NCBI GenBank assembly: GCA_028820935.1 | Contig: JAPPHZ010000045.1 | Location: 62,001-126,000, forward strand | Length of the DNA stretch: 64,000 bases | Origin: a bacterium | GTDB taxonomy: Bacteria > Actinomycetota > Acidimicrobiia > Spongiisociales > Spongiisociaceae | Direction: 5' to 3' | Shown: piece by piece, positions 4,793 through 6,667 of the stretch | Layout: every line of letters begins with the position of its first letter | Numbering within the stretch: position 1 is the stretch's first letter | Notes under the pieces: model-generated | What the model saw: only the letters and a program-made list of their open reading frames with translations | Told to the model about the DNA's origin: nothing | Databases searched by the model: none | Made by a program: the position numbers and the translations under genes

Positions 4793-4821
4793 TTGACATA
4801 CCGGATCGGATCAGCGACACT
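4793..4821 (+). promoter_or_regulatory. candidate promoter of the cimA leader transcript
   Basis: A perfect TTGACA (4793-4798) is followed after 17 bases by GACACT (4816-4821), a weak -10 element. The expected transcription start falls at about 4828-4831, at or just before the leader-peptide ATG (4831), so the leader peptide could be translated from a leaderless or nearly leaderless RNA, as is common in actinobacteria. The -10 assignment is tentative. Confidence 0.5.
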
Positions 4822-4830
4822 CGGGGCGAG

Positions 4831-4863
4831 ATGAGTATCCACACCGGGATCATTATCGACTAG
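4831..4863 (+). CDS. isoleucine-rich leader peptide (MSIHTGIIID) of the cimA attenuator
   Basis: A 10-codon open frame from ATG to TAG in which four of ten residues are isoleucine, three of them consecutive (ATC ATT ATC). The stop codon abuts a pause hairpin and is followed 28 bases later by a strong intrinsic terminator. The next gene on the strand makes citramalate, the first intermediate of threonine-independent isoleucine synthesis. This matches the architecture of ribosome-mediated amino-acid attenuators. Recognition rests on composition, position and downstream gene. No homolog search was done. Confidence 0.75.
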   Translation: MSIHTGIIID

Positions 4864-4888
4864 GGCATAGGGAAACGACCCTGTGCCC
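4863..4888 (+). promoter_or_regulatory. pause/anti-antiterminator-type hairpin of the leader
   Basis: GGGCATAGGG (4863-4872) pairs with CCCTGTGCCC (4879-4888) around the loop AAACGA, with one G-U wobble in ten pairs. Its 5' arm starts on the last base of the leader-peptide stop. The same 5' arm can alternatively pair with CCCTGCGCTC (4893-4902) with one mismatch, which would disrupt the terminator. Confidence 0.6.
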
Positions 4889-4890
4889 GC

Positions 4891-4922
4891 AACCCTGCGC
4901 TCCGGCGCAGGGTTCTTTATTT
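4891..4922 (+). terminator. intrinsic terminator (attenuator) upstream of cimA
   Basis: A perfect 10-bp stem AACCCTGCGC / GCGCAGGGTT with a four-base TCCG loop (4891-4914) is followed by CTTTATTT. This is a textbook Rho-independent terminator. It sits between a promoter and the structural gene rather than after a gene, which is why it is read as an attenuator. Confidence 0.85.
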
Positions 4923-4951: not shown

Positions 4952-5052
4952 GGAGGGTACTGAAAAATGTCCGGTTGGTCGAGAGTCGGCCTATGAAGCC
5001 CCAGGTCAAGGGATCGCAGGCCAACCTATCCCCGTCCTTTTCAGCACCCTCC
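4952..5052 (+). promoter_or_regulatory. long-range inverted repeat between attenuator and cimA
   Basis: GGAGGGTACTGAAAA (4952-4966) is complementary at 14 of 15 positions to TTTTCAGCACCCTCC (5038-5052), 71 bases away and ending 13 bases before the cimA ATG. The left arm contains a Shine-Dalgarno-like GGGAGGG that precedes a nine-codon open frame (4967-4996). Pairing could hide that site or present the cimA start. Role unknown. The 4688-5056 gap otherwise holds only the trpS upstream region. Confidence 0.5.
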
Positions 5053-5065
5053 TAGGGTGGCTCGC

Positions 5066-6667
5066 ATGGCACATCCCCGACTCGAAATCTACGACACGAC
5101 CCTGCGCGACGGGGCGCAGCAGGAGGGCATCTCGCTGACCGTCTCCGACAAGTTGCGGATCGCCGCCTTGCTGGACGACCTCGGCGTCGGCTACATCGAG
5201 GGCGGATGGCCCGGGGCCAACCCGAAGGACAGCGAGTTCTTCAAGCGGGCACGTTCCGAACTCAACCTCCGCACCGCGTCGTTGACTGCGTTCGGCGCCA
5301 CGCGCCGGCCCCGCCGCTCTGTCGAGGGCGATCCGCAGATGCTCAACCTGCTCGAAGCGGAGACGGACGTGGTCTGCATCGTCGGGAAGGCGTGGGACTA
5401 CCACGTCCGGGAAGCCCTCCTGACGGACCTCGACGACGGCGTCGCCATGGTGGCGGAGTCGGTGGCCTACCTGAGACGCCACGGCCGGCGCGTCTTCTTC
5501 GACGCGGAGCACTTCTTCGACGGCTACCGGTCGAACCCGGACTTCTCCATCAGAGTGCTCCGCGCCGCACTCGAGGAGGGCGCCGAGCGTCTGGTCCTGT
5601 GCGATACCAACGGTGGGCGCCTGCTGCCGGACATCGCCGGCGCCATCGACCACGTCCAGGAGGCCCTTCCGGACGCCGAACTGGGCGTGCATTTCCACAA
5701 CGACGCCGGCTGTGCGGTGGCCTCGTCGCTGACGGCCGTCGAGATGGGCATCCGCCAGGTGCAGGGGTGCATCAACGGCTACGGAGAGCGCACGGGTAAC
5801 GCCGACCTCTCCACCATCCTCCCCGACCTCGTGCTCAAGATGGGAGTCCCGGTACTCGAACCGGGCCGACTCAAGATCCTGTCGCCCATCGCCCACCACA
5901 TCGCCGAGATCGTGAACGTCAGCCTCGAACCCCAAAGCCCGTTCGTCGGCGCGTCGGCCTTCACCCACAAGGCCGGCCTGCACACCTCGGCGCTGGCCCG
6001 GCGTCCCGACGCCTACGAGCACCAGGACCCGGCTCAGGTAGGCAACCGGACCCGCACCGTGGTCTCGGAACTGTCGGGACGCTCGACCATCCTCGCCAAG
6101 GCCCGGGACCTTGGTATCGCGCTCACCAGCGGCCAGGCCGCCGATGTGCTGGACGAGATCAAGCACATGGAGAACCGCGGCTATCACTTCGAGGCCGCCG
6201 ACGGATCGTTCGAGCTGATGCTGAGGCAGGCCGGCGGCTGGTCGCACGACTTCTTCGAGTTGGAGTCGTTCCGGGTCTCGACCGAGCATCGGTCCGATGC
6301 GCTGGTCATGGCGGAGGCCACGGTCAAGATCGTCATCCGGGGCGAGCGGGTGATAAGGACCGGCGAAGGCAACGGTCCGGTCAACGCACTCGACCAGGCG
6401 CTGAGGGAAGCGCTCAGGCACCACTATCCCCACCTGGACACGCTGCGCCTCACCAACTACAACGTGCGCGTCCTGGACGCCACCGCCTCGACGGCCGCGG
6501 TGGTGAGGGTCTTCATCGAGATGAGCGATGGCCCGTCGACCTGGGGATCCATCGGGGTGCACGAGAACGTTATCGAAGCCACGTGGGAGGCGATGGCGGA
6601 CGGGATCGTCATCGGCCTGCTCCGGGCCGGAGCGGAACCGATCGGCGCGCTCGCCATGGGATTGTGA
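5066..6667 (+). CDS. cimA: (R)-citramalate synthase
   Basis: Condenses pyruvate and acetyl-CoA to citramalate, a route to 2-oxobutyrate and isoleucine that bypasses threonine. The 533-residue protein starts with the HMGL/DRE-TIM barrel signature YDTTLRDGAQQEGIS, has metal-ligand histidines in GVHFHNDAG, and ends with a LeuA-type allosteric dimer domain. Length and the string EGGWPGANPKD are typical of the CimA subgroup rather than 2-isopropylmalate synthase. I prefer ATG 5066 because GGTGG lies five bases upstream; GTG 5057 is in frame. The upstream leader peptide and terminator suggest isoleucine control. The stop overlaps hisN by 4 bases (GTGA), so the two are probably co-translated. Confidence 0.93.
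   Translation: MAHPRLEIYDTTLRDGAQQEGISLTVSDKLRIAALLDDLGVGYIEGGWPGANPKDSEFFKRARSELNLRTASLTAFGATRRPRRSVEGDPQMLNLLEAETDVVCIVGKAWDYHVREALLTDLDDGVAMVAESVAYLRRHGRRVFFDAEHFFDGYRSNPDFSIRVLRAALEEGAERLVLCDTNGGRLLPDIAGAIDHVQEALPDAELGVHFHNDAGCAVASSLTAVEMGIRQVQGCINGYGERTGNADLSTILPDLVLKMGVPVLEPGRLKILSPIAHHIAEIVNVSLEPQSPFVGASAFTHKAGLHTSALARRPDAYEHQDPAQVGNRTRTVVSELSGRSTILAKARDLGIALTSGQAADVLDEIKHMENRGYHFEAADGSFELMLRQAGGWSHDFFELESFRVSTEHRSDALVMAEATVKIVIRGERVIRTGEGNGPVNALDQALREALRHHYPHLDTLRLTNYNVRVLDATASTAAVVRVFIEMSDGPSTWGSIGVHENVIEATWEAMADGIVIGLLRAGAEPIGALAMGL

Follow-up and report, generated by a model that had tools for sequence, protein, structure and literature searches.

The cimA gene of an uncultured member of Acidimicrobiia, encoding (R)-citramalate synthase, is very probably preceded by an isoleucine-responsive attenuator that senses charged tRNA-Ile through a ribosome translating a short leader peptide. 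Isoleucine leader-peptide attenuation of cimA had been proposed in an earlier note on the 64,000-nucleotide stretch of DNA analysed here (the window), and comparative genomics strongly supports it: a leader, a first hairpin (P1), and a terminator precede cimA in 103 of the 105 genomes of the order in which the region upstream of cimA could be read, and each of three isoleucine codons near the leader stop is kept in 91-93 of these 103. That the ribosome would respond to isoleucine can be regarded as a strong inference from these sequences. The full description, a ribosome-dependent transcription attenuator that senses isoleucine, uses P1 as a foldable spacer, and works with no antiterminator, is probably correct, while the specific role of P1 as a foldable spacer step, argued from spacing and from Escherichia coli data, is plausible and put forward tentatively.

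The elements reported in the earlier note, including a promoter, a ten-codon leader with four isoleucine codons, a hairpin abutting the leader stop, and a 10-bp terminator with a T-rich tail, were all found again at unchanged positions (Table 1). The leader reads ATG AGT ATC CAC ACC GGG ATC ATT ATC GAC TAG, with isoleucine codons at 4837, 4849, 4852, and 4855. Since the -10 box lies only 9 nt from the ATG, the leader mRNA should, from its predicted transcription start, be leaderless or almost leaderless. P1 begins on the third base (G) of the stop codon TAG, and 2 nt past its end starts the terminator, a perfect 10-bp stem (AACCCTGCGC TCCG GCGCAGGGTT) followed by the tail CTTTATTTGG. The folding energy of the segment is -49.0 kcal/mol, compared with -28.1 +/- 3.3 in dinucleotide shuffles (z -6.3), and the complete architecture of promoter, short ORF, abutting hairpin, and terminator has a single match in the window. 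Rfam returned tRNAs only and no leader family for the whole window; between 4780 and 5080 its top match was an antisense hit of 14.8 bits against a gathering score of 50, and seven related loci gave no match, T-box included, so that neither the window nor these loci can be assigned to the T-box class by Rfam.

Table 1. Features of the cimA leader region, with positions in the window.
Feature	Position	Strand	Details and basis
-35 box TTGACA	4793..4798	+	sequence
-10 box GACACT	4816..4821	+	sequence; 17 nt after -35, 9 nt before leader ATG
Leader ORF MSIHTGIIID*, 10 codons	4831..4863	+	sequence
Hairpin P1	4863..4888	+	arms 4863-4872 GGGCATAGGG / 4879-4888 CCCTGTGCCC, 10 bp, loop AAACGA; folding
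Intrinsic terminator and T-rich tail	4891..4922	+	arms 4891-4900 / 4905-4914, loop TCCG, tail 4915-4922
Dispersed inverted-repeat element, ~103 bp	4952..5056	+	between terminator and cimA; outside the switch
cimA, (R)-citramalate synthase, regulated gene	5066..6667	+	NCBIfam TIGR00977, 653 bits, cut-off 450

Within the same genus and family, the arrangement is present in 15 of 15 genomes, with leaders of the genus ending in HTGIIID* or HTGIIIE* apart from one member, whose leader is MNISIGIIIE. Named MAG contigs, mostly labelled Acidimicrobiia, carry the same arrangement with divergent leaders, including MSTATIIIITD, MTTNPTWTIIIIE, MRPYDLGIIIR, MKATSTAIIIID, MTDARNFTIIIT, and others. It extends to an AT-rich order-level group of the same class with genomes of about 1 Mb (L359-L382, a named relative being labelled Candidatus Actinomarina), where leader, P1, and terminator were found in all 24 of 24 genomes; their leaders are of the MINFIIII* or MKKIIIII* type with four or five isoleucine codons, and P1 adjoins the terminator with a linker of 0 nt in 23 of 24 and of one nucleotide in the other. 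A scan for the architecture across 2.0 Mb of a family-level relative gave two matches, both before branched-chain amino-acid genes, while the same 2.0 Mb reversed, serving as a control, gave none. Judged from these genomes, the arrangement is neither a product of chance nor a local accident.

Of the 103 relatives, 96 have a TTGA[CT] motif 35-41 nt upstream of the leader ATG, and the -10 boxes counted include CATACT (52), GACACT (9), and GATACT (8). Isoleucine occupies the second codon before the stop (-2) in 92, position -3 in 91, and position -4 in 93, with a single residue separating the last isoleucine from the stop in 91. The expectation of the earlier note that conserved isoleucine-run leaders would be found before cimA was borne out in this order, and the opposite pattern, in which the isoleucine codons are lost and the terminator is kept, is not the case across about 100 genomes. 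In many other Acidimicrobiia (L044-L101), no such leader stands directly before cimA, which there lies close behind another gene, aminotransferase- or dehydrogenase-like by sequence. Matches to the isoleucine-run pattern outside cimA were also inspected and set aside: in three genomes of genus g29, the two examined proved to mark the beginning of a long RmuC-like ORF, and a fourth stray match (G233) falls within an ABC-transporter gene region.

The second match in the 2.0-Mb relative lies before acetolactate synthase, ilvB followed by ilvN (both named from sequence), with the leader MAHGNPVLVLM*. Comparison of ilvB loci, including that of the window's own genome (L330, G000:C30) together with L329 and L331-L357, revealed the same architecture at 26 of 30 loci of the order: a leaderless ORF, a stop-abutting hairpin, and a terminator, as before cimA. 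In the own genome the ilvB leader is MTGRSLVLVLM*, and elsewhere the leaders end in LVLVLM*, LVLILM*, ILVLT*, IVLR*, or similar strings of leucine and valine, at times with isoleucine. With isoleucine before cimA and leucine or valine before ilvB in one and the same architecture, the control codons, as read from these leaders, track the pathway and the geometry is constant. A constitutive leader, whose terminator would merely fix a basal level and whose isoleucine codons would be incidental, is very unlikely and scarcely credible: isoleucine fills positions -2 to -4 in more than 88% of 103 leaders that are otherwise freely variable, leucine and valine replace it at the equivalent place before ilvB, and the AT-rich relatives have four or five isoleucine codons.

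Codon choice within the run is uneven. ATT accounts for 59 of the 91 isoleucine codons at leader position -3 and for 106 of 348 leader isoleucine codons overall, compared with 28 of 420 (6.7%) within cimA at 21 loci that carry a leader and 0 of 27 in the cimA of the window. This apparent clustering of the rarer ATT codon at the centre of the run is consistent with a tuned ribosome stall. Of all leader residues in the order, 17% are threonine, which stands at position -6, just before the isoleucine run, in 52 of 103 leaders; since threonine is the isoleucine precursor in the other pathway, it is conceivable as a second sensed amino acid.

The earlier note had also envisaged a non-classical competition, in which the 5' arm of P1, and not its 3' arm, pairs with the terminator stem. 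Pairing among the arms of P1 (1 and 2) and of the terminator (3 and 4) was examined by a swap test, which compares pairing energies within one locus with those obtained when parts are exchanged among loci of the same family and is blind to the pairing of invariant bases. Across 71 non-redundant cimA leaders, arm1:arm2 (z -13.9) and arm3:arm4 (z -10.1) were the sole locus-specific arm pairings, and none of the cross-pairings was locus-specific (1:3 z +0.6, 2:3 +1.1, 2:4 +1.6, 1:4 -0.8). The ilvB set, serving as an independent replicate, likewise had P1 and the terminator alone as locus-specific pairings, with all cross-pairings between -0.2 and +0.7. Mean cross-pairing energies were about -3 to -6 kcal/mol, compared with -19 and -17 for P1 and the terminator. 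Pairing of the leader coding region, loops, and tail with P1 or the terminator was rejected as well, the most negative value (z -2.7, lead:linker) being unconvincing over 34 comparisons. Because only P1 and the terminator are locus-specific, a conserved antiterminator is, by this comparison, absent.

These results bear directly on a classical four-arm attenuator, in which one arm of the first hairpin, released by ribosome stalling, forms an antiterminator with a terminator arm, the 5'-arm version included. Known amino-acid attenuators, including Corynebacterium ilvBNC, possess an antiterminator (PMC11857589), and as isolated duplexes in the window's genus, the P1 5' arm with the terminator 5' arm (1:3) reaches -9.0 kcal/mol and the P1 3' arm with the terminator 3' arm (2:4) reaches -15.4 kcal/mol. 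The 3' arm is thus the stronger partner, contrary to the earlier note, and 1:3 pairing is no better than chance in the 71 relatives. The 2:4 duplex was rejected as an antiterminator, since its hairpin ends at the same T tract and should itself terminate, and it is not conserved elsewhere. Moreover, only 0-7 nt separate arms 2 and 3, so that a 2:3 hairpin would have a very small loop at best, and with ribosome front edges placed at +0, +3, and +6 for the isoleucine codons, the equilibrium probability of the terminator stays at 0.96-0.98 across the family. The four-arm scheme is consequently disfavoured, even as a local device, and quite improbable; 2:4 pairing in the window's genus could add a local RNA-level effect. 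"Position sensor" or "foldable spacer" suits P1 better than "competing strand". Equilibrium folding forms the terminator at nearly every ribosome position, so the switch would depend on steric or kinetic effects that are invisible to folding programs.

Spacing offers a candidate for such an effect. Counted from its first base, the last control codon precedes the first P1 pair by 7-9 nt in 89 of 103 cimA leaders, by 7-8 nt in 23 of 26 ilvB leaders, and by 7 nt in 18 of the 24 AT-rich relatives. In the last group, the final isoleucine codon is mostly at -1, nearer the stop, and P1 starts correspondingly later, which points to the codon-to-hairpin distance, rather than the stop-to-hairpin distance, as the fixed quantity. 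A ribosome covers about 15 nt ahead of the first base of its P-site codon. By standard footprints, a ribosome with an isoleucine codon in its A site would touch P1 at the base of its stem or close to it, and one that has reached the stop codon would cover the whole P1 5' arm. The terminator begins 24-37 nt after the stop, at least 24 nt in 103 of 103 leaders. With P1 folded, a ribosome is 2-13 nt from the terminator when on the last isoleucine codon and 9-21 nt when on the first (103 leaders); in the window, the stop-to-terminator distance is 27 nt, and with P1 folded the corresponding distances are 7 nt and 13 nt.

In E. coli, a ribosome a few nucleotides upstream represses a terminator almost fully, the repression requires translation, and it is released beyond about 27-30 nt (PMC4824070). 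Spacers of 24-26 nt between stop and terminator, present in 27 of 103 leaders, fall slightly inside the 27-nt radius, a value that belongs to E. coli and to unstructured spacers and may differ here. Under the proposed mechanism, scarce isoleucine would leave the ribosome waiting on the isoleucine codons, facing a folded P1; this hairpin would place it only about 2-21 nt from the terminator, blocking the terminator hairpin and allowing RNA polymerase to read through into cimA. When isoleucine is plentiful, the ribosome would reach the stop and melt P1, standing 24-37 nt from the terminator, which would then form and stop transcription. In the event of no translation, the terminator would form as well, and the switch would be off. 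P1 would thereby convert a three-codon shift of the ribosome into a large change in the distance between ribosome and terminator.

The folded P1 might instead act mainly as a polymerase pause hairpin. According to this explanation, P1 is merely a pause hairpin or the first part of a two-hairpin terminator, with the ribosome opening P1 or delaying the polymerase and spacing being irrelevant. Pause hairpins are standard in attenuators, and two-hairpin clusters less than 80 nt from stop codons are common intrinsic terminators (PMC8355165). As a terminator helper, however, P1 would have the wrong sign for a biosynthetic gene, since the 7-9 nt between codon and hairpin keep it folded under isoleucine scarcity, and a pure pause hairpin has no need for a 0-7 nt linker or for a sharp 24-nt minimum in the stop-to-terminator distance. 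This explanation is possible, if on the unlikely side. A class-wide, antiterminator-free family of attenuators, in which P1 is the foldable spacer and the ribosome itself serves as the antiterminator, before cimA for isoleucine and before ilvB for leucine and valine, is also possible and is held a shade more tentatively than the spacer role of P1 itself.

The element shares with the trp, his, ilv, and leu attenuators of enterobacteria a leader peptide with control codons, a pause-type hairpin, and an intrinsic terminator. Those attenuators depend on 2:3 and 3:4 pairings that exclude each other and on a leader ORF led by a Shine-Dalgarno sequence, whereas the present leader has only 1:2 and 3:4 pairing and an apparently leaderless ORF. 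It is an attenuator in the broad sense, having an end-product codon run in the leader ORF and a terminator between that ORF and the structural gene, and it is not of the classical four-arm type: an antiterminator sharing a terminator strand was found neither before cimA nor before ilvB, and the control codons lie outside the 5' strand of hairpin 1, which starts at the stop, 7-9 nt from where the last control codon begins. The E. coli pyrBI leader responds to UTP by way of the speed of the polymerase, and it has an ORF that extends through the terminator. In the present leader, by contrast, amino-acid codons would place the ribosome, and the proposed determinant of the distance is a folded hairpin; the two are alike in the proposed antitermination by closeness of the ribosome, with no antiterminator strand, as in the repression of nearby terminators by ribosomes in E. 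coli (PMC4824070).

Within Actinomycetota, one of the closest likenesses is to the Corynebacterium ilvBNC leader and the ilvB-II motif, where an actinobacterial branched-chain gene follows a short Ile/Leu/Val leader peptide, a hairpin, and then a terminator, and where translation of ilvBNC starts 1 nt from the transcription start (PMC10272879, PMC11857589). The ilvBNC leader ORF spans P1, and mutational analysis backs an antiterminator that overlaps the terminator (PMC10272879, PMC11857589); in the leaders described here, unlike the ilvB-II motif, the leader ORF before cimA and that before ilvB each end where P1 begins instead of spanning it, and a conserved antiterminator is lacking. RNA-level control of branched-chain genes in this phylum also includes candidate ilvB leaders, the LEU element, and ileS T-boxes, as described in PMC1262725, in which the codon runs of the ilvB leaders overlap the terminator, the LEU element is a pseudoknot, and several actinobacterial leaders are reported with attenuator parts missing. 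The parts of that source consulted leave cimA unmentioned, and the genomes it lists include no Acidimicrobiia. A full-text literature search, with most subscription journals outside its coverage, turned up neither a cimA attenuator nor anything about leader peptides in Acidimicrobiia.

These findings suggest that ribosome position is what meters the pyruvate route to isoleucine in uncultured Acidimicrobiia. If the spacer model is true, the leader would unite the codon-level sensing of trp and his with the ribosome-proximity antitermination of pyrBI, as a minimal device spanning about 90 nt for which an alternative RNA fold is unnecessary. It could also explain why searches for alternative structures miss attenuators in Actinobacteria, where PMC1262725 reports several leaders with missing parts.

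Around the switch, the left neighbour of cimA is trpS, in divergent orientation, and the gene that follows cimA is HisN-like, scoring below the cut-off of that model. No threonine deaminase exceeded the family cut-off in the own genome, where weaker matches only were obtained. The element at 4952-5056 was considered as a riboswitch or T-box-like structure and rejected, being a multi-copy dispersed repeat with an unexceptional fold (z -0.3) on which Rfam is silent. It is bounded by the terminal inverted repeats GGAGGGTACTGAAAA / TTTTCAGCACCCTCC, recurs elsewhere in the own genome in at least 39 further copies of 75-87% identity, and is missing at the cimA site in sister genomes (L010-L017). Its many copies and its lack in sister genomes identify it, on sequence grounds, as a MITE-like insertion adjoining the cimA ribosome-binding site.
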